Shown here piece by piece: positions 41,684 to 52,756 of a DNA stretch of 52,756 nt. Below the pieces are notes generated by a model. That model saw only the letters and a program-made list of their open reading frames with translations, did no database searches and was not told the DNA's origin. Position numbers and translations under genes: made by a program. This DNA is from a virus. Position 1 is the first letter of the stretch; each line of letters begins with the position of its first letter. The stretch spans positions 1 through 52,756 of IMG/VR virus record IMGVR_UViG_3300003323_000185. The stretch is one strand, 5' to 3'.

Positions 41684-41692
41684 AACTTCGGG

Positions 41693-41721
41693 TTGACACC
41701 ATGCCTCTTCGGGTGTAAGCT
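41693..41721 (+). promoter_or_regulatory. Promoter opening the tRNA region
   Basis: Consensus TTGACA (41693-41698), 17 nt, TAAGCT (41716-41721), starting 10 nt after a stop codon. The same -35 and -10 recur at 46357. It would start the tRNA transcript near 41728. Confidence 0.65.
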
Positions 41722-41746
41722 TGAACATGTCCGGTTAGGGAACCTC

Positions 41747-41763
41747 CGGGGCGAGGCACCCCG
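41747..41763 (+). other. Leader hairpin before the first tRNA
   Basis: CGGGG (41747-41751) pairs with CCCCG (41759-41763); a second small stem GGTT/AACC precedes it. It lies 15 nt before tRNA-Glu, in line with the structured spacers further on. Confidence 0.5.
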
Positions 41764-41778
41764 CCCGCCGGGCTCCAT

Positions 41779-41854
41779 GCTCCGTTAGAATAGTCCGGTT
41801 TAATTCACCTGACTCTCAATCAGGAGATCACGGGTTCAAATCCCGTACGGAGTA
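41779..41854 (+). tRNA. tRNA-Glu(CTC)
   Basis: Full cloverleaf: acceptor 41779-41785 with 41847-41853, anticodon loop CTCTCAA (anticodon CTC), T-loop TTCAAAT. Pair 1-72 is G.U, discriminator A, then C74. Reads GAG. Confidence 0.9.
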
Positions 41855-41896
41855 CGTGACGTCGATGAGCGTGACATGCGAAATCGGGCTATAAAT

Positions 41897-41919
41897 TGTA
41901 CTAGGAAGCCGCTAGTACA
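41897..41919 (+). other. 8-bp hairpin just upstream of tRNA-Glu(TTC)
   Basis: TGTACTAG (41897-41904) pairs perfectly with CTAGTACA (41912-41919), loop GAAGCCG, ending 3 nt before the tRNA. Confidence 0.7.
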
Positions 41920-41922
41920 CAT

Positions 41923-41997
41923 GGCGCATTAGAACAATTGGTTAGTTTCGCCAGACTTTCAATCTGGAGGTTGCGGGTTCGAGTCCCGTATGCGCTA
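41923..41997 (+). tRNA. tRNA-Glu(TTC)
   Basis: Cloverleaf with anticodon stem CCAGA/TCTGG and loop CTTTCAA (anticodon TTC), T-loop TTCGAGT. G1.U72, A73, then CC encoded. Reads GAA. Confidence 0.92.
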
Positions 41998-41999
41998 CC

Positions 42000-42079
42000 G
42001 GGTAAGGCCAGAGATCCCTTTAAGGAAGAAGGAATTGTAATAACCTGATTCCGTGGAGCACTTACATGCTACCTTACCT
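42000..42079 (+). ncRNA. Structured spacer closed by a long-range stem
   Basis: GGGTAAGG (42000-42007) pairs with CCTTACCT (42072-42079; one G.U). Inside, GGAAT/ATTCC and AGC/GCT form further stems. It fills the whole gap between tRNA-Glu and tRNA-Trp and ends 6 nt before the latter. Confidence 0.5.
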
Positions 42080-42085
42080 GACCAT

Positions 42086-42157
42086 ATGGGTGAGCCAACG
42101 GATAGGCAATTGGTCTCCAAAACCAATCAAAACTCGGTTCGACTCCGAGCACCCGTG
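42086..42157 (+). tRNA. tRNA-Trp(CCA)
   Basis: Anticodon stem TTGGT/ACCAA with loop CTCCAAA (anticodon CCA), T-arm CTCGG/CCGAG. Acceptor 42086-42092 with 42150-42156, A1-U72 and U2.G71, discriminator G, then CC. Confidence 0.88.
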
Positions 42158-42161
42158 CCTT

Positions 42162-42254
42162 GAGGGTTCAGTTTGATCGACTGACGTATTTGTGTGATCA
42201 CCAAATGCGACATTCTTCGGGAAAGTTAAAACCCGAAAGAAAGTACCCTCTTTT
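42162..42254 (+). ncRNA. Candidate three-way-junction small RNA with T-tail
   Basis: Outer stem GAGGGT (42162-42167)/ACCCTC (42245-42250) is followed by TTTT. Inside are CGTATTTG/CAAATGCG (42185-42192 with 42202-42209, one wobble) and TTCGGG/CCCGAA (42216-42221 with 42232-42237). It starts 4 nt after tRNA-Trp. It may be a small RNA or an elaborate terminator. Confidence 0.5.
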
Positions 42255-42287
42255 AATTTGTCCTGTTAATAGATCAAAGGAGTAAAA

Positions 42288-42446
42288 ATGGCTGACGCTG
42301 GTAAGAAGACTAATAACTACAAAGATTACCGTACAAAGGGTGATAAGACTCAAGATTTCCGGCCAGATCGTGGACGGACTGAGGATTATCGAGCTGGTAA
42401 GGGTAAGGCTAAGATAGTTACAAAAGTTGTAAAAAAGCGTAGCTAA
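42288..42446 (+). CDS. Small highly charged protein
   Basis: 52 residues with AAAGGAG 6 nt before the ATG. It contains two similar Asp/Arg/Tyr blocks (NYKDYRTKGDK, DRGRTEDYRAGKGK) and a Lys-rich end. Possibly nucleic-acid binding; family unknown. Confidence 0.6.
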   Translation: MADAGKKTNNYKDYRTKGDKTQDFRPDRGRTEDYRAGKGKAKIVTKVVKKRS

Positions 42447-42454
42447 TGTTTAAA

Positions 42455-42468
42455 GCGGGGAAACCCGC
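42455..42468 (+). other. GAAA-tetraloop hairpin before tRNA-Ile
   Basis: GCGGG (42455-42459), loop GAAA, CCCGC (42464-42468), a GNRA hairpin ending 3 nt before the tRNA. Confidence 0.6.
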
Positions 42469-42471
42469 GAT

Positions 42472-42547
42472 GCCGCGTAGGCTTGGCTGGTTGCTGGAGG
42501 CATACTTATAATATGCTTAAAGGTGGGTTCAATTCCCACACGCGGTA
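42472..42547 (+). tRNA. tRNA-Ile(TAT)
   Basis: Anticodon stem GCATA/TATGC with loop CTTATAA gives TAT, reading the rare Ile codon ATA. T-arm GTGGG/CCCAC, G1.U72, A73, C74. Confidence 0.88.
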
Positions 42548-42562
42548 CTTTTGTTGTATAAT
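42533..42562 (+). promoter_or_regulatory. Promoter overlapping the end of tRNA-Ile
   Basis: TTCCCA (42533-42538, inside the T-arm), 18 nt, perfect TATAAT (42557-42562). It would start transcription about 40 nt before the gene at 42610. Confidence 0.5.
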
Positions 42563-42609
42563 GGGTTCATGGGACTTGGTCCTAAATAAAACTCATGAGG
42601 TAATAAATA

Positions 42610-42816
42610 ATGGCTAAGTATAGATATGCGGTAGAAATTAAGCATATTAAAAATGATACTGTTGTGACAACTTTCTTGACTCCTTTAACAGATAGTGCGG
42701 ATATTAATGCCTATGTTAGAGATGTTGCAACAAAGCATCATCTAGTAGCACCAGCTTACATTGCACTTGTTAAGCGAGACAATGTAGATGAAGCGGTAAC
42801 TCAGGTTACCCTTTGA
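42610..42816 (+). CDS. Hypothetical small protein
   Basis: 68 residues, ribosome site GAGGTAATAA. A compact alpha/beta pattern (KYRYAVEIKHIKN, then INAYVRDVATKHH). No family recognised. It has promoter-like sites on both sides. Confidence 0.6.
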   Translation: MAKYRYAVEIKHIKNDTVVTTFLTPLTDSADINAYVRDVATKHHLVAPAYIALVKRDNVDEAVTQVTL

Positions 42817-42841
42817 GTCTGAATAGACATTAAACTAGAAT
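42813..42841 (+). promoter_or_regulatory. Promoter at the end of the preceding gene
   Basis: TTGAGT (42813-42818, overlapping the stop codon), 17 nt, TAGAAT (42836-42841). Predicted start about 42848, 15 nt before the next ATG. Confidence 0.55.
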
Positions 42842-42862
42842 ACCGGGAAGGTAAACGGCGGG

Positions 42863-43147
42863 ATGCCAAGAGAGACAATTTATGGAGATCCAAACACATC
42901 AACACTTATTGATGTTAGATGGGTTAAAGACTGTGATGTACAGATTGGTTTAAGAATCGATCCTGGAACAGATACAGATGCAGCATTTATCAAGCTTTTT
43001 GATTCACATGGCAAGGAAGTTGCCCCTGTACAAGATGGCATCGGCTATGATAGTCTTTGGACCGAGTCACTAACCAGGCAGCAGATCAATAAATTAATTC
43101 AACTGCTACGTAAGGCTAGGGACGGCGCGTATGGGAAAGACGCCTAA
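42863..43147 (+). CDS. Hypothetical protein
   Basis: 94 residues after GGGAAGG. A beta-rich first half (DVQIGLRIDPGTDTDAAF) and a helical C-terminus with QQINKLIQLLRKAR. No family recognised. It overlaps the next gene by 17 nt. Confidence 0.6.
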   Translation: MPRETIYGDPNTSTLIDVRWVKDCDVQIGLRIDPGTDTDAAFIKLFDSHGKEVAPVQDGIGYDSLWTESLTRQQINKLIQLLRKARDGAYGKDA

Positions 43148-43322
43148 GAAGAAAAAAGGCTGTGTCAAATGTGGCAAACAGGCATGTAAGTGTACGCCAA
43201 AAAGCACCTATGGTGATGATGGTGGACTTGGTGCCGCTGATTATGAGCTTTATTATGGTAGAACTGATAATCAAATGCCACCACCAGGTAAGAAGTTTAA
43301 GCCAAAGTACAACCCAAACTAA
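43131..43322 (+). CDS. Small Cys/Lys-rich protein
   Basis: 63 residues. A Lys-rich start and CVKCGKQACKC could bind zinc; the rest is Gly/Tyr/Pro-rich. It overlaps the previous gene and ends 4 nt before a strong promoter. Confidence 0.55.
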   Translation: MGKTPKKKKGCVKCGKQACKCTPKSTYGDDGGLGAADYELYYGRTDNQMPPPGKKFKPKYNPN

Positions 43323-43326
43323 GGGC

Positions 43327-43354
43327 TTGACAGTAGCTGGGAAGCTGCTAGAAT
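43327..43354 (+). promoter_or_regulatory. Strong promoter of the large structured RNA
   Basis: TTGACA (43327-43332), 16 nt, TAGAAT (43349-43354). Predicted start about 43361, exactly where the first long stem of the structured region begins (43362). Confidence 0.72.
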
Positions 43355-43361
43355 AGTTCTT

Positions 43362-43716
43362 ACCAACTCCCCGGGATTTGAAGCGGGGGCGAGGACCAGA
43401 TTGGTAGTTGGTGCGAGAGTATCGCTTAAATACACGGGACGCCGCGACAACGGTGCAATAACATGCTGGTAATATAGCCCGTAATAGAGAGGCCAGCACA
43501 GCGTTTCCTAGCTATTTGTCGATAGCTGCTGTTTAATGGGACGTTTGAGGAAACGGACGTTCCACCAAAACCGGAGAGTATTGCACTAGATTACAAAAGG
43601 TGCTTGGGGACCCCTAGGGCATCATAATCAGGATCTAGGCTGTATGGCGAAATGGCGGTACATATCCCAGGGGCATTGCCCATAAGGATGGTATAGATGT
43701 TTTCCTCTTATGGGCA
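43362..43716 (+). ncRNA. Candidate large structured noncoding RNA
   Basis: No credible gene lies in this 355-nt stretch. Helices in order: ACCAACT/AGTTGGT (43362-43368 with 43406-43412) enclosing CCCCG/CGGGG and ACCA/TGGT as a three-way junction; GCGA/TCGC; ACGGG/CCCGT (43434-43438 with 43478-43482); ACAGC/GCTGT (43498-43502 with 43528-43532) stacked on AGCTAT/ATAGCT (43510-43515 with 43522-43527); GGGACGT/ACGTTCC near 43538-43562; CCTAG/CTAGG; and a perfect 10-bp stem 43677-43686 with 43707-43716. It has its own promoter and runs into tRNA-Asn. Its context recalls GOLLD/ROOL RNAs of phages, but I see no proof of membership. Confidence 0.55.
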
Positions 43717-43720
43717 CCAA

Positions 43721-43794
43721 TGGCGTATAGCTCAATTTGGCAGAGCTGTCGGCTGTTAACCGACCGGTTGCAGGTTCGAGTCCTGCTATGCCAG
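43721..43794 (+). tRNA. tRNA-Asn(GTT), first copy
   Basis: Anticodon stem GTCGG/CCGAC with loop CTGTTAA (GTT), T-arm GCAGG/CCTGC. U1-A72, G73, C74. The 10-bp spacer stem ends 4 nt upstream. Confidence 0.92.
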
Positions 43795-43965
43795 CGTAAC
43801 CGCCCGTCTCCCTCGTGGGTCGGGTTTACAAATAACCGTGAAGCATACATCTAAGGCGTGCCGGTCGTACCCCTGACCATGCTTGAAAGTATGTGGAGAA
43901 TACGCTTAGCGGCGTAAAATGTCCAAGAGTAAAGGGACGTGAGGACAGCGGTTTGTTTTAACATA
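43795..43965 (+). other. Structured spacer between tRNA-Asn and a tRNA-like relic
   Basis: No gene. CTAAGgCGT pairs with ACGCTTAG, enclosing GGTC/GACC and CATGC/GTATG as a three-way junction; CCCG/CGGG and TGTCC/GGACA lie on either side. Confidence 0.45.
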
Positions 43966-44033
43966 CAAGCATTTAGCTCAGTGGCAGAGCAGGTAGAACG
44001 CCAAGACCATGGTTCGATTCCATGATTGCTTGT
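43966..44033 (+). pseudogene. Degenerate tRNA-like sequence
   Basis: ACAAGCA/TGCTTGT can form an acceptor stem, GCTC/GAGC a D-stem and CATGG-TTCGATT-CCATG a T-arm. Only 16 nt separate the D and T arms, about 5 too few, no stable anticodon stem or U33 is seen, and two extra bases follow the T-arm. It looks like a tRNA that lost part of its anticodon/variable region. Confidence 0.5.
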
Positions 44034-44039
44034 ATTTAA

Positions 44040-44115
44040 TCCGGTAGGGTCACTGTTGGTAGTGTCGGATGACTGTTAATCATCTACCCCGTTGGTTCGA
44101 TTCCAGCTACCGGAG
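44040..44115 (+). tRNA. tRNA-Asn(GTT), second copy
   Basis: Acceptor TCCGGTA/TACCGGA, anticodon stem GATGA/TCATC with loop CTGTTAA (GTT), T-loop TTCGATT. G73, C74. Its sequence differs widely from the first Asn tRNA, so it is not a recent duplicate. Confidence 0.88.
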
Positions 44116-44117
44116 CT

Positions 44118-44248
44118 GGTGAAGTATTGGATGGTACGTAGGTTCGAATCCTACCTAAGGTATGGTACTTGCGGTTTGAGCCCGCTATATAAATTTTGAG
44201 TCAAATAGGGTAGCTCCCGCCTGCTGGTTCGAATCCAGCAACTTCACC
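44118..44248 (+). other. Composite tRNA-like element with three T-arm-like hairpins
   Basis: GGTGAAGT (44118-44125) pairs perfectly with ACTTCACC (44241-44248). Within lie GTAGG-TTCGAAT-CCTAC (44138-44154), GCGG-TTTGAGC-CCGC (44171-44185) and GCTGG-TTCGAAT-CCAGC (44223-44239). At 131 nt it is too long for one tRNA and too short for two. The middle hairpin could serve as an anticodon arm (TGA, Ser). Confidence 0.5.
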
Positions 44249-44256
44249 TTCAAGCT

Positions 44257-44286
44257 TGCGTTACCAACTCGCTGAATGGTACAATC
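44257..44286 (+). promoter_or_regulatory. Promoter before tRNA-Tyr
   Basis: TTGCGT, an 18-nt spacer and TACAAT near 44281-44286. The downstream leader folds as a long hairpin (CCTAAAT 44312-44318 with ATTTAGG 44340-44346, extended by CAAAC/GTTTG). Confidence 0.5.
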
Positions 44287-44379
44287 TGGTATAGCTCAAA
44301 CAGAGATAAGTCCTAAATTTCCGGCCGGAGTAAAAGAGCATTTAGGCACCGAAGTTTGTTCAGAGTCAGATCGCACAAT

Positions 44380-44462
44380 GGGGATATTGCAGATACGGCA
44401 GTCTGCACCTGACTGTAAATCAGGAGTCTTTGACTTTGGGGGTTCGAATCCCTCTATCCTCA
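44380..44462 (+). tRNA. tRNA-Tyr(GTA)
   Basis: 83 nt with the long variable arm expected for bacterial Tyr. Anticodon stem CCTGA/TCAGG, loop CTGTAAA (GTA), acceptor GGGGATA/TATCCTC, A73, C74. Confidence 0.92.
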
Positions 44463-44470
44463 CGCAGCGT

Positions 44471-44609
44471 TTGCTAGTTTGAAAGGTAAAACGTGAGCCC
44501 GTAAGCTTGCACCACGGCGTGGACGGGGCAGAAAATACTAGCTGAGATTTGGTAGGTCTCCTAGCCTTGAGCTAGTGGAATCGTAGGGTTCCGAATAAAC
44601 TACTAGCAA
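44471..44609 (+). ncRNA. Structured spacer closed by an 8-bp stem before tRNA-Phe
   Basis: TTGCTAGT (44471-44478) pairs perfectly with ACTAGCAA (44602-44609), ending 1 nt before tRNA-Phe. Inside, GCCCGT/ACGGGGC and CTAGC/GCTAG form hairpins. No gene is present. Confidence 0.5.
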
Positions 44610-44610
44610 T

Positions 44611-44682
44611 GGCCATATAGCTCAGTTGGAAGAGCAATCGGTTGAAGCCCGATGCGCCACGGTTCGATTCCGTGTGTGGCTA
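44611..44682 (+). tRNA. tRNA-Phe(GAA)
   Basis: Anticodon stem ATCGG/CCGAT, loop TTGAAGC (GAA), T-arm CACGG/CCGTG. G1.U72, A73, C74. Confidence 0.9.
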
Positions 44683-44684
44683 CG

Positions 44685-44712
44685 TTACAGGAAAAGACGA
44701 TCGCTTTATACT
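44685..44712 (+). promoter_or_regulatory. Promoter after tRNA-Phe
   Basis: TTACAG (44685-44690), 16 nt, TATACT (44707-44712). It would transcribe a leader with several hairpins (CCAGG/CCTGG, CGAC/GTCG, ACCGG/CCGGT, GGCAG/CTGCC), the gene at 44861 and tRNA-Asp. Confidence 0.5.
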
Positions 44713-44860
44713 GTAGGCAGAGATAAGCCATATTTTGACCAGGATCAACACCTGGCCCTGGCGACTCATGTCGGGGGACCGGTGTCTCAATTTATACAAT
44801 CCACCCCGGTGAAGGCAGGCCACCAGAAACTGCCGGGGTATCAAACAACCAAAGGAAATC

Positions 44861-45154
44861 ATGCAGCTAAAAACATATGATGCAAGAGTGGTTAAAGATA
44901 CAGACTTAGAAGATTTTCTTGAGGAAATTTATGGAGTTAGAGTTGATATCCAAGCAGGAGAATACAGCAATAATTCCTATATTGAATTTGAAGTAAGAGA
45001 TTTTGAAACTGTTGAAGGTTTTGATCTAGAAAAAGAAATAAATGACTGGATTAAATCTGGTGGTCCATACTTTGACGAAGAATTAATTGGTCTAGATTTA
45101 GCAAGAAAAAAGCTTCTACCAGAAGGAAAATATATAATTACCATCTGGTGGTAA
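44861..45154 (+). CDS. Hypothetical protein
   Basis: 97 residues with AAAGGAAATC before the ATG. Acidic, alternating strands and helices (DLEDFLEEIYGVRVDI) with KYIITIWW at the end. No family recognised. It lies between tRNA-Phe and tRNA-Asp. Confidence 0.6.
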   Translation: MQLKTYDARVVKDTDLEDFLEEIYGVRVDIQAGEYSNNSYIEFEVRDFETVEGFDLEKEINDWIKSGGPYFDEELIGLDLARKKLLPEGKYIITIWW

Positions 45155-45161
45155 ATGGAAT

Positions 45162-45235
45162 GGCCTTGTAACTCAGTTGGTTAGAGTGTCACCCTGTCAA
45201 GGTGGAAGTCGCGGGTTCAAGTCCCGTCAAGGTCG
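45162..45235 (+). tRNA. tRNA-Asp(GTC), first copy
   Basis: Anticodon stem TCACC/GGTGG, loop CTGTCAA (GTC), T-arm GCGGG/CCCGT, acceptor GGCCTTG/CAAGGTC, G73, C74. Confidence 0.92.
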
Positions 45236-45240
45236 CTTTA

Positions 45241-45249
45241 TGCTACAAT
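45241..45249 (+). promoter_or_regulatory. Extended -10 promoter feeding a leaderless gene
   Basis: TGC-TACAAT (45241-45249) is an extended -10 located right after tRNA-Asp. The ATG at 45256 lies 7 nt beyond the -10, at the expected transcription start. Confidence 0.55.
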
Positions 45250-45255
45250 AATAAA

Positions 45256-45474
45256 ATGCGTTTACTTGATACAGTTAGAGATAAGACTGGTGATCCAAAA
45301 GCATGGAAAAAGGTTCACTTGACTCTGACAGTGGTATGGGCATTGCTGGTCATTCCTACAGCTCTATTTTGGAATGAATCAGTTTTGTGGATTGGTTTAA
45401 TCAGTTGCTATGCCAATATGGTTGGACATTTTAGTGCTTGGCAAGCTAGCCGAGCAGAAGATAATGGATCTTAA
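45256..45474 (+). CDS. Small membrane protein, probably leaderless
   Basis: 72 residues from ATG 45256. A longer frame begins at 45202 but lies inside tRNA-Asp. Two hydrophobic segments at about 22-40 and 44-60 suggest a membrane hairpin, with a charged N-terminus. No ribosome site precedes the ATG. Family unknown. Confidence 0.6.
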   Translation: MRLLDTVRDKTGDPKAWKKVHLTLTVVWALLVIPTALFWNESVLWIGLISCYANMVGHFSAWQASRAEDNGS

Positions 45475-45523
45475 AGAAAGGGCTAGACGTTAAAAAGTCA
45501 GCGTGCTAGCATAAGTCACACAA

Positions 45524-45602
45524 CGCCCGTGGCACTGCGGTAGGAGTGGTGGCCTCCCTGTCAAGGAGGAAATTCAGGCGGGTTCGACCCCCGTACGGGT
45601 GA
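45524..45602 (+). tRNA. tRNA-Asp(GTC), second copy, atypical D-arm
   Basis: Anticodon stem CCTCC/GGAGG, loop CTGTCAA (GTC), T-arm GCGGG/CCCGT, acceptor CGCCCGT/ACGGGTG with A73 and C74. The D-arm region is oversized and lacks U8, and discriminator A is unusual for Asp. Confidence 0.68.
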
Positions 45603-45604
45603 CA

Positions 45605-45630
45605 AGGATATTGCAGGACAATATCCTTTT
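45605..45630 (+). terminator. Rho-independent terminator after the second tRNA-Asp
   Basis: Perfect 9-bp stem AGGATATTG/CAATATCCT (45605-45613 with 45619-45627), 5-nt loop, followed by TTTT. It starts 3 nt after the tRNA. Confidence 0.85.
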
Positions 45631-45639
45631 ATATATAAA
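45611..45639 (+). promoter_or_regulatory. Promoter-like site overlapping the terminator
   Basis: TTGCAG (45611-45616), 17 nt, TATAAA (45634-45639). The overlap repeats the stop-restart layout at 1080-1133. Confidence 0.4.
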
Positions 45640-45781
45640 AGATATATAACCTGGGAAAATAGGTCTGATCTTGACCCGAGTCAGATCTTGATAGTTTAAC
45701 CCTGATCTCCTTCCACAAGAGGACACGCATGGTACCGCAGGGAGGCTAGAGGTAAAAAGCTAGCTATCGGGTTTCCATAAT

Positions 45782-45867
45782 GGAGAGTTCGCATAATCTG
45801 GTATTGCAGCGGATTGCTAATCCGCCGGGCCTAAAAACCCTTGCAGGTTCAAATCCTGTACTCTCCG
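45782..45867 (+). tRNA. tRNA-Ser(GCT)
   Basis: 86 nt, class II, with the long variable arm of Ser. Anticodon stem GCGGA/TCCGC, loop TTGCTAA (GCT), acceptor GGAGAGT/ACTCTCC, G73, C74. Confidence 0.92.
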
Positions 45868-45890
45868 CAAACCAATCGCTCTGACGTAAA

Positions 45891-45971
45891 CAGTTGAGGG
45901 TTGGGTTCAACGTCGGATGCACGGCGGACAACTGAAAGTGTAGTATCCTGAGTATAAGAGTGGATAACTAC
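45891..45971 (+). ncRNA. Structured spacer hairpins between tRNA-Ser and tRNA-Thr
   Basis: CAGTTG/CAACTG (45891-45896 with 45929-45934), then GTAGTATCC with GGATaACTAC (45940-45948 with 45962-45971, one bulge), then GTATA/TATAC near 45994-46011. No gene seen between 45868 and 46036. Confidence 0.5.
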
Positions 45972-46036
45972 GGGAAGATTCCGGTATAGGGGCGCTTATA
46001 CTAACCTATTTTGAAGAAGGAATCATGCATCACAAT

Positions 46037-46111
46037 GCCACCATAGCTCCAATTTGGTAGAGCGGGTAACTTGTAATTACTTGGTTGAGGGTTCGAGTCC
46101 TTCTGGTGGCT
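46037..46111 (+). tRNA. tRNA-Thr(TGT)
   Basis: Anticodon stem GGTAA/TTACT, loop CTTGTAA (TGT), acceptor GCCACCA/TGGTGGC, T73, C74. The next gene starts immediately after C74. Confidence 0.88.
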
Positions 46112-46112
46112 C

Positions 46113-46274
46113 ATGGCAAAAAGTAGAAATCACGTAATCTATAATACGGATAAAGAAGTTTTAAAAAGGTTAAAAGAAGAATATGAAATGCTTGGTAGGT
46201 ATTGTACAATAAAAGGTGAAAGCCTGATTGTACATGCTCTTGATCCAAGGCACGGTAAAAAGGCTAAGAAATAG
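46113..46274 (+). CDS. Small basic protein starting directly after tRNA-Thr
   Basis: 53 residues (MAKSRNHVIYNTDKEVLKRL). The ATG follows the tRNA discriminator by a single C and has no ribosome site, since the upstream bases are tRNA. Maturation of the tRNA 3' end could release a leaderless mRNA. Basic, helical; family unknown. Confidence 0.58.
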   Translation: MAKSRNHVIYNTDKEVLKRLKEEYEMLGRYCTIKGESLIVHALDPRHGKKAKK

Positions 46275-46280
46275 CCGTAT

Positions 46281-46355
46281 GGTGGCCATGGTGTAAGTGG
46301 TATGCATAACTGACTGTGAATCAGTAGGACTTGAGTTCAACTCTCAGTGGTCACC
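46281..46355 (+). tRNA. tRNA-His(GTG)
   Basis: Anticodon stem ACTGA/TCAGT, loop CTGTGAA (GTG), acceptor GTGGCCA/TGGTCAC with the extra G at -1 (46281) opposite C73, as His tRNAs need. Confidence 0.9.
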
Positions 46356-46356
46356 C

Positions 46357-46384
46357 TTGACAGCTTAGTGGAACATGCTAAGCT
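46357..46384 (+). promoter_or_regulatory. Promoter directly after tRNA-His
   Basis: TTGACA (46357-46362), 16 nt, TAAGCT (46379-46384). It resembles those at 41693 and 43327 and would start about 23 nt before the next ATG. Confidence 0.65.
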
Positions 46385-46413
46385 ACTAGCAACAACGACG
46401 AACGGAGGCTGTA

Positions 46414-46611
46414 ATGTTTCAAACAGGTAATCTTAAGCCGGGAGAAATCTGCCCGGGAATGACTTGGGAGGCACATGCAGACTCCGTTGCTCGTTTTATG
46501 GATAGGCAAATGCATGAGCAATTCAATGTATCTAATCTAGATGCTCTGCGCCGGATTGTTCTAGAGGATATTGATGGAGATGACATTGCCGAGCTTGAGC
46601 AAAATTCTTAA
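46414..46611 (+). CDS. Hypothetical small protein
   Basis: 65 residues after CGGAGGCTGTA. Acidic with a helical C-terminal half (NLDALRRIVLEDIDGDDIAE). Function unknown. Confidence 0.6.
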   Translation: MFQTGNLKPGEICPGMTWEAHADSVARFMDRQMHEQFNVSNLDALRRIVLEDIDGDDIAELEQNS

Positions 46612-46612
46612 A

Positions 46613-46798: not shown

Positions 46799-46830
46799 TA
46801 GAATATCTAAGCAGGCCAACAAAATATCTG

Positions 46831-46922: not shown

Positions 46923-46932
46923 CTCAAATCGG

Positions 46933-47447: not shown

Positions 47448-47906
47448 ATGATTACTTATTCTAATGGATCGATCTTTGATTGCGGAGCTACCGCAATCGT
47501 TAATGCGGTAAACTGTGTAGGCGTTATGGGCGCGGGACTGGCAAAGGCTTTTGCTGATAGGTACCCCCTAATGGACCTAGACTATATCGAGCAATGTAAG
47601 CTTGGATTACTGGAACCAGGTAAGGTTCATGCATATTATTCGAATCTAGATCCTGACGCACCACTTATTATTAATTTCCCTACAAAGGATGATTGGCGAA
47701 ACCCAAGCCAACTTGACTACATTGAATATGGTATGGAAGCATTGACCGATTTGGTTCGACGTTTTCGCATTGGATCAATTGGAATTCCTGCCCTTGGATG
47801 TGGTCTTGGTGGGTTGAAATGGGAAGATGTAAAGTCTATTATTGAGCGTCATGCCAGCCAACCTCCGGTAGATTGGGTTAATTGGATTCTCTTTCCACCC
47901 CAATAA
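47448..47906 (+). CDS. Macrodomain protein (ADP-ribose binding, DarG-like)
   Basis: 152 residues from ATG 47448, after AAAGGAAAACA; the frame open from 47376 is the structured RNA region. NAVNCVGVMGAGLAKAF near residues 18-34 and IPALGCGLGGLKWEDV near 112-127 are the ADP-ribose-binding loops, closest in appearance to DarG-type macrodomains that remove ADP-ribose from DNA. No DarT-like toxin is adjacent. It could undo host ADP-ribosylation defence or process ADP-ribose metabolites. Confidence 0.88.
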   Translation: MITYSNGSIFDCGATAIVNAVNCVGVMGAGLAKAFADRYPLMDLDYIEQCKLGLLEPGKVHAYYSNLDPDAPLIINFPTKDDWRNPSQLDYIEYGMEALTDLVRRFRIGSIGIPALGCGLGGLKWEDVKSIIERHASQPPVDWVNWILFPPQ

Positions 47907-47954
47907 TATTACTTTAAGTTAAGATGCAAAATGCAATCCTCCGTGGTAATATTA
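47904..47954 (+). other. 9-bp AT-rich hairpin at the macrodomain gene stop
   Basis: TAATATTAC (47904-47912, including the stop codon) pairs with GTAATATTA (47946-47954). There is no T-run, so it may protect the mRNA end or act as leader structure for the next gene. Confidence 0.5.
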
Positions 47955-47983
47955 AAATGCCACAAAGAAGGAGGGTTGTTTAA

Positions 47984-48415
47984 ATGACAGTTCCAGACAG
48001 CTCCCGCATTCTTCTGGCTATTAGAGATCTAGCAGATACCATGGTGTATAAAATAGAAACTCTTAAAGAAGAATTGTGGGAGGTGAAAATCAATATGGCA
48101 GATCTAAACCAGAGTGTTGCAGATCTTCAGACTGCTGTACAGGGTGTTTCTGACCGTGTTAATGCTCTTGTAGGTCCTCTACAGGAACAGATCGCTACTC
48201 TACAGTCAGCTCTTGAGACTGAGCGTCAGGCAGCGGCAGACCTTGCAGCGGCTGAAGACGCTGAGGATGTAGCACAGAACCAGGCTCTAGCAGATGCACA
48301 GGCAGCAACTGACGCTGCTCTTGCTGACGCTTCAAACTCAGCAGACAGCATCAATGCAGAAGTTCAGAAGCTTAATTCTGTAGCCGCACCAACCGAGCCA
48401 CCACGCGAGGGATGA
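47984..48415 (+). CDS. Coiled-coil protein
   Basis: 143 residues with AAGGAGGG before the ATG. Residues about 40-85 form heptads (LQTAVQGVSDRVNALVGPLQ) and 90-125 are Ala-rich helix, ending in a Pro-rich tail. GC-richer codons than the neighbours are noticeable. It may be a virion decoration, fibre or scaffold-like protein. Confidence 0.65.
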   Translation: MTVPDSSRILLAIRDLADTMVYKIETLKEELWEVKINMADLNQSVADLQTAVQGVSDRVNALVGPLQEQIATLQSALETERQAAADLAAAEDAEDVAQNQALADAQAATDAALADASNSADSINAEVQKLNSVAAPTEPPREG

Positions 48416-48478
48416 TCTAAACGTCGCGGTTGAGAAGCGCGAAAGCTGTTGTAAGTACCCATTGCAACGAAGCTTGAA

Positions 48479-48512
48479 GCCTGGTAGGGTCTAGGTACAG
48501 GTTCTACCAGGC
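48479..48512 (+). other. 9-bp leader hairpin before the next gene
   Basis: GCCTGGTAG (48479-48487) pairs perfectly with CTACCAGGC (48504-48512). There is no T-run; it stands about 20 nt before an ATG with a good ribosome site. Confidence 0.55.
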
Positions 48513-48531
48513 ATCTCTATTTGGAGGCATT

Positions 48532-48780
48532 ATGCACAAGTCAAAGACTAAGTGGATTTGCGTTGACTGTCCCCGAGACACCAAGTATGAACACTATTTC
48601 GTAAAAAATGAAGTTTGGTTTGGACTTGCCAAGATGCCTGAGTGTGGTATGCTTTGCGTGCAGTGCTTGGAGAGGCGCATTGGTCGGGAACTTTGTGCTG
48701 ATGACTTCACCGATGCACACATTAATAACCCAAAAAAAAACATGATGACTGATTTGCTTCGGTCGCGAATCATGTCTTGA
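48532..48780 (+). CDS. Small Cys-rich zinc-binding protein
   Basis: 82 residues after TTGGAGGCATT. CVDC near residue 10 and CGMLCVQC near 38-45 followed by LERRIGRELCADDF suggest a zinc fold seen in small actinophage proteins of unknown role. The basic C-terminus may touch nucleic acid. Confidence 0.62.
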   Translation: MHKSKTKWICVDCPRDTKYEHYFVKNEVWFGLAKMPECGMLCVQCLERRIGRELCADDFTDAHINNPKKNMMTDLLRSRIMS

Positions 48781-48783
48781 CAA

Positions 48784-48886
48784 GCCGCAAGGCTTACAGT
48801 AAGCTTAAGAACGAACGTGGTGGAAGCGATACCAGTTATACTGTACACAAGAAGCAATCGCAATGCTGGATAGGGGATGATTCCAG
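48784..48886 (+). other. Hairpin-rich spacer before tRNA-Lys(TTT)
   Basis: AAGCC-GCAA-GGCTT (GNRA tetraloop), GCGAT/ATCGC and CTGGA/TCCAG are visible; the last ends 5 nt before the tRNA. Confidence 0.5.
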
Positions 48887-48891
48887 TTTAA

Positions 48892-48963
48892 GCCTCCGTA
48901 GCTCAGAGGAAGAGCAGCTGCCTTTTAAGCAGCGGGTCGAGATATCGTAATTCTCCGGGGGTA
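48892..48963 (+). tRNA. tRNA-Lys(TTT) with noncanonical T-loop
   Basis: Anticodon stem GCTGC/GCAGC, loop CTTTTAA (TTT), acceptor GCCTCCG/CGGGGGT with G1.U72, A73, C74. The T-arm GAGAT-ATCGTAA-TTCTC lacks the TTC motif. Position 54 is A and 58 is T, a swap of the usual T54-A58 pair. Confidence 0.75.
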
Positions 48964-49292
48964 CTTTTAATGTAGTTCAAGTGAATCTTGCAGCAATTAC
49001 AGTAAAATTTAATCGAAACCGTTAATTGAACGGTGAGCAAAAACATTATGAGTAATTATTGGTATCAATCGCATAGGCTATAGAACGGAGTTGGGTTAAA
49101 CCCCCAACAGGTCAATAAATGAAAGTAATGCCAGTAGCAAGCTTAGTAGGTTAACGCTAGTAAATTAAAAGAATAGGTTTTTGATGTAAGACCAGTGGAA
49201 GAACGCGGGCACAGCACATGCGATTAGGAGCCCGAAATGTGGGAGTCGAGCGCCACCATTAATTAAAACAACTACGGACAATAGGAGCTATT
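48964..49292 (+). other. Gene-free stretch after tRNA-Lys(TTT)
   Basis: 329 nt without a convincing gene; only two 11-codon frames. Hairpins ACCGTT/AACGGT, GTTGGG/CCCAAC and CGGGC/GCCCG are visible, but fewer closing stems than elsewhere. Confidence 0.4.
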
Positions 49293-49499
49293 ATGGCTGA
49301 AGAACTATGGGATGTAGATATTAAAAAGCGTCATGGAAATCCTGAAAAATATCTTAGCTGTGATACTAAAACAAAAGATAAGCATGTTAAGCGGAAAAAG
49401 AATAATTCCGATATTGTCAGCGTAGACGTTAAGCCAGGAGCCGATTATTACGAATATGGCGGAAATAAAAAGAAGCTAAAAATGCGTCGAGTTCGTTAA
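49293..49499 (+). CDS. Small basic protein
   Basis: 68 residues after TAGGAGCTATT. Lys-rich with several Asp and Tyr (PGADYYEYGGNKKKL). Family unknown; resembles other charged short proteins of this region. Confidence 0.55.
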   Translation: MAEELWDVDIKKRHGNPEKYLSCDTKTKDKHVKRKKNNSDIVSVDVKPGADYYEYGGNKKKLKMRRVR

Positions 49500-49508
49500 G
49501 AGGTAATT

Positions 49509-49754
49509 ATGTCTGAATTGAAAGACGAAATTATTCGCCATGCCCAGGAAGAAGATGAGCAGGAAGCAAACGAAATTCGATATAGACGAGAAACCTTTTG
49601 GTTTAATACCATTATTTGGGGTTCGCTTTCCACAATCCCTATTGGCTTTGTAATTATTCTTGCTGGGGCCTTGGTTACTGGCTTCGTGTTTATTTGTATT
49701 GGAATTGCAGCAATGGTGCTTATGGTTTTGGGTGCACTTTTTGCGGCTGGATAG
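49509..49754 (+). CDS. Small two-helix membrane protein
   Basis: 81 residues after AGAGGTAATT. A charged N-terminal helix (about 1-28) precedes hydrophobic segments at about 31-52 and 55-79. It could be a membrane anchor or superinfection factor; no family is recognised. Confidence 0.6.
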   Translation: MSELKDEIIRHAQEEDEQEANEIRYRRETFWFNTIIWGSLSTIPIGFVIILAGALVTGFVFICIGIAAMVLMVLGALFAAG

Positions 49755-49930
49755 ATTTAGGTTGGCACCCTAAAAGGTAAATTCCGTATACCTCAAGTAC
49801 GGCGACCGAATTGGGCGGACGAGAGATACCCAAAGGTAGGGAATAGGGTTCCTCTCATACCATAACTGAGCGGGGATAATACGATAATTATCGCGGTATA
49901 TTCCTTTAGCCAAAAGGTAAATCCGTAGTA

Positions 49931-49947
49931 GCTAGGGTGGTGCTAGC
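49931..49947 (+). other. GCTAG/CTAGC hairpin before tRNA-Lys(CTT)
   Basis: GCTAG (49931-49935), loop GGTGGTG, CTAGC (49943-49947), similar to the hairpin at 46899. Earlier in the spacer CCGTA/TACGG, GAGAG/CTCTC and GATAAT/ATTATC also pair. Confidence 0.55.
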
Positions 49948-49960
49948 CCACTCTAGCCAC

Positions 49961-50035
49961 GGGGGTATAGTTTCAAATGGCAAAAACCGCAGACTCTTAC
50001 TCTGTCAGATTTGGGTTCGAATCCCAATGCCCCTA
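49961..50035 (+). tRNA. tRNA-Lys(CTT), first copy
   Basis: Anticodon stem GCAGA/TCTGT, loop CTCTTAC (CTT), T-arm TTGGG/CCCAA, acceptor GGGGGTA/TGCCCCT with G1.U72, A73, C74. A gene starts right after C74. Confidence 0.88.
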
Positions 50036-50036
50036 C

Positions 50037-50246
50037 ATGTTACGAATCAGTGAAGTAATAAAGCAGCTAAAAGATCTCCAGGAAAGACATGGAGATCTTT
50101 TTGTTTTCCAAAGTTCGGATGATGAAGGTAATAGAATTGTCAATGTTGACGAAATTGCTTTCAACGTAGCTGATGACGATGGAATTTCTCAAGAAATAAT
50201 AATCATCTGGCCGGGTTGGACAGATGCATATGAAATGGATTGGTGA
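50037..50246 (+). CDS. Small acidic protein starting directly after tRNA-Lys
   Basis: 69 residues from ATG 50037, one base after the tRNA discriminator. A longer frame from 49977 lies inside the tRNA. No ribosome site is possible outside the tRNA. The sequence (SEVIKQLKDLQERHGDLFVF) is a compact alpha/beta pattern. It repeats the layout seen at 46113. Confidence 0.6.
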   Translation: MLRISEVIKQLKDLQERHGDLFVFQSSDDEGNRIVNVDEIAFNVADDDGISQEIIIIWPGWTDAYEMDW

Positions 50247-50248
50247 TC

Positions 50249-50797
50249 ATGGGTATTTTTGATTTTCTAAAGCGTAAGAAGAAGAGTCAGCCAAAGGCTA
50301 AGAATTACGGCTACCAGCGTGTTGTAGATGACACTCGTAAGCTAAGTCTTTCAACAGGAATTCCTCAGCCTCTAAAGACAAAGCCAGCAGAAATGCCCAA
50401 GCCCCCAAAAGGCATTGTGCCAGGTGCAAAGCATGTTCCTACTGGACGAACTCGCTATAACCAGGATGATGATTACGATTATGGCTATCATGGTTATGGC
50501 TATAATCCTGGCCTTGAAAACCTAACCAGTCCACTAGGTGATGCAGATTACGACGGCACACCAAATATTGTGGACAATTCTCCTTACGGTGGATCAGAAA
50601 CCTATTGTGCACCAGATACTTCATACTCTGGTTCAAGTTCGTCCAATTGGACTAGTGACTCAAGTTCTTCATCCTGCTACGATTCAGGTAGTTCAAATTC
50701 ATACGACTCAGGGTCTAGTTCTTCAAGTTATGACTCTGGTAGTTCTAGTAGCTATGATAGTGGTTCATCATCATATGATTCAGGTTCTAGCTGGTAA
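50249..50797 (+). CDS. Ser/Tyr/Gly repeat protein with calcium-loop motif
   Basis: 182 residues from ATG 50249 (TTG 50240 possible). A basic start is followed by Pro-rich and Tyr-rich linkers, then GDADYDGTPNIVDNSP, a match to the thrombospondin type 3 calcium loop (DxDxDGxxNxxDN). The last 55 residues are near-repeats of YDSGSSS. No catalytic domain. It may be a virion or surface-associated flexible protein. Confidence 0.6.
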   Translation: MGIFDFLKRKKKSQPKAKNYGYQRVVDDTRKLSLSTGIPQPLKTKPAEMPKPPKGIVPGAKHVPTGRTRYNQDDDYDYGYHGYGYNPGLENLTSPLGDADYDGTPNIVDNSPYGGSETYCAPDTSYSGSSSSNWTSDSSSSSCYDSGSSNSYDSGSSSSSYDSGSSSSYDSGSSSYDSGSSW

Positions 50798-50817
50798 TAG
50801 CTAGGAAAGGGGGGATT

Positions 50818-50988
50818 ATGGCTTTAAATGATACTCCAAGAGCTAAAAAGCCTTGCAATATTTGCAATGGTAATCTAGCGGATCATGTCAGATGGATCAG
50901 AGATGGTAAAAAGAAGCCTCATGTCTTCACCGTAAAGGGCGAAATTCCACCAGAATATAAAAAAGGTCCATTCTTGGAGGGTAAGTAA
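50818..50988 (+). CDS. Small zinc-binding protein
   Basis: 56 residues after AAAGGGGGG. CNIC near residue 13 with a downstream His may bind zinc; the rest is basic. Overlooked easily because it is short, but it has a strong ribosome site. Confidence 0.5.
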   Translation: MALNDTPRAKKPCNICNGNLADHVRWIRDGKKKPHVFTVKGEIPPEYKKGPFLEGK

Positions 50989-50989
50989 T

Positions 50990-51244
50990 ATGACTGATAA
51001 CTGCCGAAATTGTGGTAACCCAGTCTCACAGAATAAGCAAGCATTGTGCAACAGTTGCCTTGCCGCCAAAAAGAGAGAAAATAGAGCAGCAGATCCTTCA
51101 ATTAGACAAGAGGATCAGGCACGGTATCGCAAGAAGAAGCTAGATCCAGAGTTCAAGAAAAAGAACTCTGATGCAGCAAATGCTTGGAATAAAAATAACC
51201 GTGACCGCGTTAATGAAAATCGTCGAAAGCGCGGAGGTAAATAA
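50990..51244 (+). CDS. Small zinc-finger, basic protein
   Basis: 84 residues after GGAGGGTAAGTA. CRNCGNP and CNSC form a ribbon, followed by a long basic Arg/Lys/Asn helix (RYRKKKLDPEFKKKNSDA). It resembles the N-terminal part of some phage HNH proteins but the nuclease core is missing. Confidence 0.6.
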   Translation: MTDNCRNCGNPVSQNKQALCNSCLAAKKRENRAADPSIRQEDQARYRKKKLDPEFKKKNSDAANAWNKNNRDRVNENRRKRGGK

Positions 51245-51417
51245 TGCCTATTGAACCACAGGAGACACCAAACCAGAAACGTGCTAGACTGCGTCGTGAA
51301 GGTGCAGCTAGAAGTAAAGATCGTCGTAAAAAAGCTGAAGAGGCAGCAGATCCTTGGTCTCAAAATATTAAGCCTAAAAATGGCAAGAACAAGTCTCAGG
51401 ATGAACATCCAGAGTGA
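51244..51417 (+). CDS. Small basic protein
   Basis: 57 residues in a TAATG overlap. Arg/Lys/Ala-rich (KRARLRREGAARSKDRRKK) with a polar tail. Likely nucleic-acid binding, family unknown. Confidence 0.5.
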   Translation: MPIEPQETPNQKRARLRREGAARSKDRRKKAEEAADPWSQNIKPKNGKNKSQDEHPE

Positions 51418-51429
51418 TTAGGTAAGGTT

Positions 51430-51615
51430 ATGACATACAAACCTCCTGGTATAAAAACGGAATATTGGTGTGATACTTGTGGGCTTAAGCAATGGTCGAG
51501 ACCATATAAAAGCCATAAAGTTTTTGGTCAGAAATGTAATGGTACGGTGATTGAGGTAACATATTCACTTACTCATAAGGTTGTAGTCATCGATCAAGGA
51601 AAACCTAAGTTTTAA
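51430..51615 (+). CDS. Small zinc-ribbon-like protein
   Basis: 61 residues after TTAGGTAAGGTT. CDTCG near residue 14 and a later Cys at 36 with His residues may hold a metal. Compact, aromatic-rich. Function unknown. Confidence 0.55.
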   Translation: MTYKPPGIKTEYWCDTCGLKQWSRPYKSHKVFGQKCNGTVIEVTYSLTHKVVVIDQGKPKF

Positions 51616-51622
51616 ACGACGC

Positions 51623-51650
51623 TTGACAGACAAGGCGGTTGTGCTACACT
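51623..51650 (+). promoter_or_regulatory. Promoter before tRNA-Lys
   Basis: TTGACA (51623-51628), 16 nt, TACACT (51645-51650). Predicted start about 51657, only 9 nt before the tRNA. Confidence 0.65.
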
Positions 51651-51665
51651 AGTGGTACAACCTAA

Positions 51666-51738
51666 GCGCCATTAGCTCAGTTGGTAGAGCAGATGACTCT
51701 TAATCATCGGGTCGGGGGTTCGAAACCCTCATGGCGTA
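51666..51738 (+). tRNA. tRNA-Lys(CTT), second copy
   Basis: Anticodon stem GATGA/TCATC, loop CTCTTAA (CTT), acceptor GCGCCAT/ATGGCGT, G1.U72, A73, C74. Differs from the first CTT copy over most of its length. Confidence 0.92.
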
Positions 51739-51746
51739 CGTGCATT

Positions 51747-51828
51747 TGCTGGTATATGCGCGCGGGACATGAAAGTATGATAGCCTAGGGAACATCATAA
51801 CTGGACACCCCGCGAATCCAAACCAGCA
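51747..51828 (+). ncRNA. Nested-helix spacer between tRNA-Lys and tRNA-Leu
   Basis: TGCTGGT (51747-51753) pairs with ACCAGCA (51822-51828); inside, CGCGGG/CCCGCG (51761-51766 with 51809-51814) and ATGAT/ATCAT (51777-51781 with 51794-51798) form a rod. It ends 5 nt before tRNA-Leu. Confidence 0.6.
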
Positions 51829-51833
51829 CCAAT

Positions 51834-51918
51834 GCCCCTGTGGCGAAACTAGGCAGACGCGCTAGATTTAGGCTCTAGTGTTCGAAAGGACGTGCAGGTT
51901 CAATTCCTGTCAGGGGTA
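51834..51918 (+). tRNA. tRNA-Leu(TAG)
   Basis: 85 nt, class II with long variable arm. Anticodon stem CTAGA/TCTAG, loop TTTAGGC (TAG), acceptor GCCCCTG/CAGGGGT with G1.U72, A73, C74. CTA codons are common in the window's genes. Confidence 0.9.
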
Positions 51919-51968
51919 CTTCACAGTAATAACAGTAAATAACCACTAGTAAAAAAACTGGAGGAAAT

Positions 51969-52199
51969 ATGCGCAAGAACACTCCCAAGATGTCCAAGGA
52001 AGCTCGTAAGGATGCCAATCGACGTAACAAGGGTGCTCTCATTGAGAATGCACATTTCAGTTGCAGGAAGTGTGATTCAGGTAAGTACTGCTCTAAGCAT
52101 GCTGGTGTTTCTCGTTGGCATGGTTCTCAGCTTGCTCTTTCTGCTGATGACCCCAATTTCCTTGACAAGGCTGTTGAAATGCAGCAAAACGGTCACTAA
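51969..52199 (+). CDS. Small Cys/His zinc-binding protein
   Basis: 76 residues after ACTGGAGGAAAT. A basic N-terminus precedes CRKCDSGKYCSKHAG, a likely zinc site. Function unknown. Confidence 0.58.
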   Translation: MRKNTPKMSKEARKDANRRNKGALIENAHFSCRKCDSGKYCSKHAGVSRWHGSQLALSADDPNFLDKAVEMQQNGH

Positions 52200-52218
52200 A
52201 AGATAAAGGTCCCCACCT

Positions 52219-52344
52219 TTGCCAGTAAGACAAACATTTCCCCTCCCAGAAGGGGAAGACCCTAAAAAGAAAATCAAAAAGATCGTTAAGAAAGTTAAAG
52301 AAAAGGCTAAAGAAATAAAGAAAAAGCCTGACAAAGACAAGTGA
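52219..52344 (+). CDS. Very small Lys-rich protein
   Basis: 41 residues from TTG 52219 with AAAGG upstream. More than a third Lys, as an amphipathic helix (KIVKKVKEKAKEIKKK). A weak start makes it tentative. Confidence 0.35.
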   Translation: MPVRQTFPLPEGEDPKKKIKKIVKKVKEKAKEIKKKPDKDK

Positions 52345-52349
52345 AAAAG

Positions 52350-52365
52350 GCGACCTTCGGGTCGC
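52350..52365 (+). other. TTCG-capped hairpin before an unusual tRNA
   Basis: GCGACC (52350-52355), TTCG, GGTCGC (52360-52365). No T-run follows, so it matches the pre-tRNA hairpins and is 3 nt before the tRNA. Confidence 0.55.
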
Positions 52366-52368
52366 TGA

Positions 52369-52443
52369 GCCTAGGTAGCCCAATTGGCAGGAGGCACGTG
52401 ACTAAGAATCACGACAGTATGGGTTCGAATCCCTTCCTAGGTA
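52369..52443 (+). tRNA. tRNA with anticodon AAG (nominal Leu) on a class I body
   Basis: Anticodon stem CGTGA/TCACG, loop CTAAGAA (AAG), acceptor GCCTAGG/CCTAGGT with G1.U72, A73, C74. The variable loop is 5 nt, whereas Leu tRNAs are class II, and A34 is very rare in bacteria. Charging identity is uncertain. Confidence 0.75.
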
Positions 52444-52484
52444 CGCAGTGCGATCAATCATTCATCCCGATGTGCAATAGGCCG

Positions 52485-52513
52485 TTGCACTGTTGACGGT
52501 CATGTGATATGAT
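52485..52513 (+). promoter_or_regulatory. Extended -10 promoter before tRNA-Val
   Basis: TTGCAC (52485-52490), 17 nt, TATGAT (52508-52513) preceded by TGA. Predicted start about 52520, at the edge of the next closing stem. Confidence 0.62.
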
Positions 52514-52520
52514 CCTTGTA

Positions 52521-52609
52521 GCACACAACGAGAAATTGCGGGGATTTTGGTAGCCCTTAATTCGCGAACTAATCCTCCCGTAGCTGGGGCCAGATTGATT
52601 AGAGTGTGC
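52521..52609 (+). ncRNA. Structured leader closed by a perfect stem before tRNA-Val
   Basis: GCACAC (52521-52526) pairs with GTGTGC (52604-52609) and CTAATC (52569-52574) with GATTAG (52597-52602). The closing stem ends 4 nt before the tRNA and starts at the predicted transcription start. Confidence 0.55.
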
Positions 52610-52613
52610 ATAT

Positions 52614-52685
52614 GCCGGGTTAATTCAGTGGAAGAATGCTTGTTTTACACACAAGACGTGAGAGGTTCGATTCCTCTACTCGGTA
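52614..52685 (+). tRNA. tRNA-Val(TAC)
   Basis: Anticodon stem CTTGT/ACAAG, loop TTTACAC (TAC), T-arm AGAGG/CCTCT, acceptor GCCGGGT/ACTCGGT with G1.U72, A73, C74. Confidence 0.92.
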
Positions 52686-52731
52686 CTCCATCGTAGCCGT
52701 TTGCGATGTAAAAAGACAGAACGGCACCTAT

Positions 52732-52756
52732 GCCCGTATAGATTAGTCGGTTAAAT
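52732..52756 (+). tRNA. Start of a tRNA cut by the window edge
   Basis: GCCCGTA followed by TAGATTAGTCGGTTAAA has the acceptor and D-arm look of a tRNA 5' end, and a CATCG/CGATG hairpin precedes it. The anticodon is outside the window. Confidence 0.5.

Follow-up and report, generated by a model that had tools for sequence, protein, structure and literature searches.

This analysis concerns the spacers of a phage transfer RNA (tRNA) array and the structured RNAs that lie in them. The window, by which we mean the whole stretch of DNA analysed, is the IMG/VR virus contig IMGVR_UViG_3300003323_000185 (52,756 bases), and its array (41779..52686) holds 21 tRNAs called by ARAGORN, all on the plus strand. 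A single encoded C (C74), without CCA, follows every one of the 21, as it does the 34/34 tRNAs of two syntenic relatives and ~95% of those in other relatives, and the leaders usually carry A-T or A-A at positions -2 and -1. The window terminase shares 48% identity with its counterpart in Rhodococcus phage Trina and about 45-47% with those of Streptomyces phages of the Stanwilliamsviridae. With Trina the window also shares the order of terminase, HNH gene and tRNA array. A terminase-specific scan for close relatives of the window gave no match, and relatives were found instead via a terminase profile, DnaE and RNA patterns. In two of them, the 64-kb contig L138 and L129/L139 (G001), the tRNAs follow almost the order seen in the window. 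Most window spacers do not align with these syntenic relatives, and the exceptions are the conserved RNAs described below. Contrary to the first-pass annotation, according to which most gaps hold no gene, a plausible open reading frame (ORF) is absent from 10 of the 20 tRNA-tRNA gaps. Two features set these spacers apart: perfect stems concentrated immediately before the tRNAs, and a set of conserved RNAs that probably share a precursor with the tRNAs.

Six long-range stems and three simple hairpins (41897-41919, 42455-42468 and 52350-52365) had been listed upstream of tRNAs in the first-pass annotation, and all nine are found in the window sequence:

41897..41919, plus strand: hairpin 3 nt before tRNA-Glu(TTC) (8 bp, p 0.01)
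42001..42078, plus strand: closing stem GGTAAGG/CCTTACC of the Glu-Trp spacer (7 bp, p 0.017)
42455-42468: hairpin, present in the sequence
43677..43716, plus strand: hairpin TGCCCATAAG/CTTATGGGCA before tRNA-Asn (10 bp, p 0.003)
44471..44609, plus strand: closing stem TTGCTAGT/ACTAGCAA of the Tyr-Phe spacer (8 bp, p 0.02)
47010..47111, plus strand: closing stem TTTAACTCGG/CCGAGTTAAA of the Met-Thr spacer (10 bp, p 0.003), earlier placed at 47011/47110, off by one
51747..51828, plus strand: closing stem TGCTGGT/ACCAGCA of the Lys-Leu spacer (7 bp, p 0.043)
52350..52365, plus strand: hairpin 3 nt before tRNA-Leu(AAG) (6 bp, p 0.046)
52521..52609, plus strand: stem GCACAC/GTGTGC before tRNA-Val (6 bp, p 0.096)

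We applied the definition of that annotation (a perfect stem with its 3' arm ending 1-14 nt before a tRNA) to the best stem of each upstream stretch and took dinucleotide shuffles of that stretch as control. Such stems occur far above chance in the window (Fisher combined p 1.2e-11), and 10/21 upstream regions reach p<0.05. No enrichment was found for 3' arms ending 15-28 or 43-56 nt before a tRNA (p 0.87 and 0.62), nor at random points in the coding part of the window (p 0.19), and the signal at 29-42 nt was marginal (p 0.009). The enrichment recurs in the arrays of divergent phages (Trina, 4e-8; Samisti12, 7e-5; BillNye, 6e-4; Dorin, 1.2e-3), in the metagenomic arrays L146 and L138 (1.2e-4 each) and L130 (5e-4), and in L134 (6.5e-3). 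Stems are thus concentrated 1-14 nt before tRNAs in the phage lineage of the window; the tRNA region of T5 shows no such enrichment (Fisher p 0.33). As far as we have checked, this lineage-wide placement rule has not been described.

Four elements of the spacers are conserved by the comparisons given below:

43829..43960, plus strand: RNA-A, a predicted pseudoknotted multi-branch RNA of ~130 nt closed by AAATAACCG/CGGTTTGTT (cmsearch 145 bits)
43963..44035, plus strand: RNA-D, a tRNA-like RNA without anticodon, with D-arm, T-arm and 9-bp closing stem
44118..44248, plus strand: RNA-C, with closing stem GGTGAAGT/ACTTCACC (138 bits in the window)
48966..49266, plus strand: RNA-B, a noncoding element of ~300 nt after tRNA-Lys(TTT), 77% identical to L129 overall, with nearly identical blocks

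RNA-A lies between the tandem tRNA-Asn genes of the window, in a gap that it shares with RNA-D. Its homologs are found in L129, L138, L130 and L146 and in 88 phage records, all from Streptomyces. The four metagenomic sequences of the window, L129, L138 and L130 have 32 predicted pairs, 11 of them changed on both sides, and a model built from these four matched the Streptomyces phages Sham and TunaTartare (E 1.3e-4), Samisti12 (0.0022) and Faust (0.011), from whose sequences the 88 records were reached by blastn. In most of the Stanwilliamsviridae phages inspected (Samistivirus, Karimacvirus) RNA-A stands upstream of tRNA-Asn, as in the window, and where both tandem tRNA-Asn copies are visible it precedes the second. 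When the predicted structure (closing stem, three helices and pseudoknot) was tested on ten Streptomyces sequences, 98.3% of cells were paired, against 80.8 +/- 1.6% in shuffled and 31-51% in slid controls, and 17/29 pairs had changed on both sides. The pseudoknot was 100% paired in these ten, and its arms vary together (ACGTCTT/AAGACGT, ACTGATT/AATCAGT, ACGGCTT/AAGCCGT, CGTATC/GATACG, CACATGTCG/CGACATGTG); that of the window is imperfect, with one bulge. A reciprocal model made from the Streptomyces sequences only gave four matches in 432 kb, of which L138 (E 0.0025), the window (0.097) and L130 (0.76) are at the expected places and L146 (0.007) is new. RNA-A has no Rfam 15 match at E up to 5, and in some Streptomyces phage annotations it is overlapped by 'hypothetical protein' calls. 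Directly before it in the window (43797-43828) is a 32-nt hairpin element, CCCG..CTCCCTCGTGGG..CGGG, also conserved in L129 and in L052 (15956-15986), near tRNAs and at differing places of the arrays; a TTTT comes after it in L129, and it may be a mobile terminator.

RNA-C contains, inside its closing stem, three hairpins with the T-arm signature (44138-44154, 44171-44185 and 44223-44239) and a core, AATAGGGTAGCTCCCGCC, that is invariant except in L129. Its homologs comprise 26 Streptomyces phage records, mostly unannotated there and in some phages partly annotated as 'tRNA-Ser', together with L129, L138 and L146; Comrade, Karp, StarPlatinum, LukeCage and others are among the phages with RNA-C under 'tRNA-Ser' or RNA-A under 'hypothetical protein'. 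The closing stem differs completely among phages (GGTGAAGT, GGTGAATA, CACAGAGAG, ACAGAGGGT, TTTATACAGAGT, TGTACAGAGG) and the matching 3' arm is always present, so that pairing is 100% with the own arm and 52% with swapped arms. Covariation is seen in T-arms 1 and 3 but not in T-arm 2, which is invariant, and the three T-arms and closing stem are kept in 11 distinct sequences. No Rfam 15 match was found at E up to 5, and one exact-core pattern scan did not find RNA-C in bacterial genomes. In Faust and NootNoot, RNA-C stands before a tRNA-Arg. The compensatory changes show that the predicted structures of RNA-A, pseudoknot included, and of RNA-C are held together, and for these two spacer RNAs they bear out the earlier proposal that structure rather than sequence is selected.

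RNA-D scores 42.9 bits with the Rfam tRNA model, above the gathering cut-off of 29, and is not called by ARAGORN. Where an anticodon arm with a 7-nt loop would be expected, 3/3 homologs have a stub of 3 bp and a 5-nt loop (GGT-AGAAC-GCC); L129 and L138 both keep RNA-D, with compensatory changes in the T-stem. RNA-B is known from two sequences, those of the window and L129, and may contain a long-range pairing (ATCGCAT/ATGCGAT). Rfam has no match to it (E up to 5), and it gave no phage homolog and no viral homolog beyond L129.

Three further features lie in the array:

43578..43661, plus strand: RNA-E, a block of 84 nt before tRNA-Asn, with 82% identity to L138
47199..47418, plus strand: manA-like RNA, a full-length match to RF01745 (40.0 bits, gathering 55.2; E 1.4e-7)
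47448..47906, plus strand: macro-domain ORF downstream of the manA-like RNA (PF01661, E 2.7e-16)

RNA-E is preceded by a promoter-like TTGACA-16-TAGAAT at 43327, one of two strong promoter-like sites inside the array (43327-43354, 11/12 matches; 51623-51650, 10/12). The -10 of the second is overlapped by a 26-nt palindrome (51636-51661) that might be operator-like. The manA-like RNA occupies the spacer 47195-47447 with 30 nt between its end and the macro-domain start codon, a position compatible with a 5' untranslated region (5'UTR), and its score is below the manA cut-off; those relatives of the macro-domain gene that were inspected are without tRNA arrays. The array has four copies of an 8-mer, GAGATAAG (44303, 44720, 45278, 46846), on the plus strand only and in three cases in noncoding spacers; this 8-mer is rare in relatives.

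Other arrays hold tRNA-like pieces and known RNAs of their own. Just after tRNA-Lys in L138 (about 10573-10659) is a tRNA-like RNA that has a T-arm and an acceptor-like stem (GGCCTAG/CTAGGCC) and lacks a D-arm. The Leu-Val spacer of L138 (12680-12780), found also in L129, has a T-arm-bearing tRNA-like fold inside a closing stem (AAAGCAG/CTGCTTT), with three compensatory pairs between the two. In Trina (L029, about 27355-27420) the order of elements resembles a circularly permuted tRNA (T-arm, ACCCCCG ACCATA GGGGGT, D-arm, CTGTAAATC), and orphan T-arms adjoin this sequence, with the gene of a Ro RNA-binding protein downstream. The array of one relative contains GOLLD RNA (L134, 12883-13298, 199.7 bits) and transfer-messenger RNA (tmRNA; 17272-17640). 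A whole-model match to bacterial class A RNase P RNA directly follows a tRNA in the 115-kb relative G004 (L135, 361-595; 74.7 bits, E 8e-21, gathering 100), possibly a reduced, phage-encoded RNase P RNA; the array of G004, a more distant relative, also carries GOLLD and tmRNA.

Stable RNAs of the same kind are the species 1 and 2 RNAs of the T4 tRNA region. In T5, RNA1, RNA2, RNA2H, RNA3, RNAI, RNAIII and RNAIV are annotated as stable RNAs of the tRNA region, some of them tRNA-like, and the likeness to our case is that structured non-tRNA RNAs have their genes among the tRNA genes of a phage; RNA2 folds with a pair of T-arms enclosed by a single closing stem. Unlike the T5 RNAs, those of the window are predictions, and no T5 sequence match was found for RNA-A or RNA-C. 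GOLLD and ROOL are large structured RNAs near phage tRNA islands that form homo-oligomeric cages (PMC12286853), whereas RNA-A and RNA-C are of ~130 nt and have different structures, and neither of the two Rfam models finds a match (E up to 5) in 41600-52756. The T-arm stacked on an acceptor-like closing stem, in a phage tRNA array, recalls tmRNA and other tRNA-like RNAs, but RNA-C has three T-arms and no tag ORF that we noticed, RNA-D has no anticodon loop, and tmRNA itself has no match in the window. The manA-like RNA resembles the manA motif in matching the whole model, including the conserved 3' part, and in its 5'UTR position. That motif is known from marine metagenomes, two gamma-proteobacteria and cyanophages (PMC2864571), whereas the element here is carried by an actinophage relative and has a macro-domain gene downstream. 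Stable, partly tRNA-like RNAs of phage tRNA regions are therefore a kind already known from T5 and GOLLD/ROOL, and RNA-A and RNA-C appear to be new families of it because they are described neither in Rfam nor in the literature searched.

The account that we consider probable is that the array is transcribed as a mixed precursor, in which tRNAs and other stable RNAs stand side by side and are cut apart by the tRNA-processing enzymes. It is favoured by the position-specific stems and their recurrence in divergent arrays, the covariation in RNA-A and RNA-C, the place of RNA-A before tRNA-Asn, the orphan T-arm hairpins of these arrays, the better acceptor-stem pairing with native spacers, the GOLLD and tmRNA in the array of a relative, and the stable RNAs of T5. 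RNase P would cut the 5' end of each tRNA and the 3' tRNA-processing enzymes the other end, so that each spacer would be released as an RNA. A stem closing the spacer would leave just a short, A/T-ending leader single-stranded for RNase P, would block pairing of the spacer with the neighbouring tRNAs and would give the released RNA paired, exonuclease-resistant ends. Once released, RNA-A, RNA-B, RNA-C and RNA-D could have functions of their own, and the remaining, fast-changing spacers could be selected mainly for being self-contained. Guidance of RNase P, one of the roles first suggested for the stems, fits with an unpaired leader. Insulation of the tRNAs from misfolding, another of those roles, gains modest support: in 29 spacers of four arrays, the pairing probability of the tRNA acceptor stem averages 0.53 when the spacer is native and 0.36 when it is shuffled (Wilcoxon p 0.008).

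Several points weigh against the mixed precursor. Expression and processing of the array RNAs are assumed, and transcription, stability and function are inferred. The six long-range stems listed above are unconserved in sequence and without alignable homologs even in syntenic relatives, and the insulation effect is modest, with individual spacers going both ways. Upstream stems are weak in the G001/L129 array (3.7e-3, or 0.13 under a shorter cut) and not significantly enriched in the arrays L131, L033 and L169, and the Streptomyces-only model of RNA-A finds the window weakly. Compared with shuffles, the minimum free energy (MFE) of the spacers is lower than that of coding segments (mean z -1.51 vs -0.73, p 0.007) and reaches z about -3.5 to -4 in the Met-Thr spacer, but only 39% of spacers individually beat their shuffles at p<0.05, so the earlier description of the spacers as consistently folded was too strong. 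The free-energy test is itself poorly suited here because clearly conserved RNAs (RNA-A, RNA-B and the manA-like RNA) fail it; single-sequence MFE folding also often misplaces T-arms. Retention of pairing between L138 and L129 is mixed, being good in four spacers (88-99% identical, or holding RNA-A and RNA-D) and uninformative elsewhere.

It is unlikely, though the strongest of the alternatives, that the stems serve only as insulators or processing aids, keeping the spacer off the tRNAs and the leader open, and that the released spacers have no function. The confinement of stems to 1-14 nt before tRNAs, the better acceptor pairing with native spacers and the conservation of layout without that of most spacer sequences would all be expected. 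Insulation would have no need, however, of covarying internal helices and a pseudoknot, and RNA-A and RNA-C are kept in detail across phages whose terminases are ~45% identical to that of the window. The spacers could also be graveyards of decaying tRNA genes, with T-arms and stems as remnants of acceptor and T stems. Orphan T-arm hairpins outside called tRNAs are indeed very common in these arrays (window array, 3; L129/L138, 5-6; Trina, 10; Samisti12, 13; expectation from shuffling, at most 0.06), some of them being missed tRNAs or tmRNA, and RNA-D resembles a tRNA minus its anticodon arm. Decay, however, yields no compensatory changes, whereas RNA-C keeps its T-arms and closing stem in 11 distinct sequences, the pairing of RNA-D is kept in three phages and RNA-A has no tRNA-like parts, so we regard this origin as improbable. 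Even less credit is due to ordinary transcription terminators, or 3'-end hairpins of the mRNAs of small genes between the tRNAs: two hairpins (42455-42468 and 52350-52365) closely follow ORF stop codons, but terminator-like sites (a G+C-rich hairpin and T run) number 10 vs 9.0 in shuffles, the second hairpin alone among the listed stems is terminator-like, and on the minus strand, and many stems span 64-123 nt, unlike terminators. That all spacers form one large RNA assembly like the cages of GOLLD and ROOL, as had also been suggested, is scarcely credible, since neither model matches the window at E up to 5, even though a relative carries GOLLD in its array, and nothing supports it: the conserved elements are each self-closed and differ in phylogenetic spread, the parts being different RNAs with different homologs.

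Within the mixed precursor, the closing stem of RNA-C is predicted to stack on a T-arm in a tRNA-like manner, and RNA-C would therefore be expected to be a substrate or competitor of enzymes that read the tRNA elbow. We raise tentatively, as a rather doubtful proposal, that the arrays of this actinobacteriophage family and its metagenomic relatives encode undescribed small RNAs of which RNA-C, a three-T-arm mimic of the elbow, and RNA-D act as decoys for elbow-reading enzymes or defence factors, and the pseudoknotted RNA-A as a regulator apart from these, linked to the tandem tRNA-Asn genes. As families, these RNAs seem solid; that any of them acts as a decoy is a guess.

Usually, a phage tRNA array is taken to consist of tRNAs and unknown gaps, and here the gaps hold conserved structured RNAs. 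These RNAs recur across the Stanwilliamsviridae, including culturable Streptomyces phages, so that the old question of the role of the stable RNAs of phage tRNA regions becomes directly testable, in laboratory strains and at named loci. The stems, for their part, suggest that the spacers of a working tRNA array must obey a folding rule.

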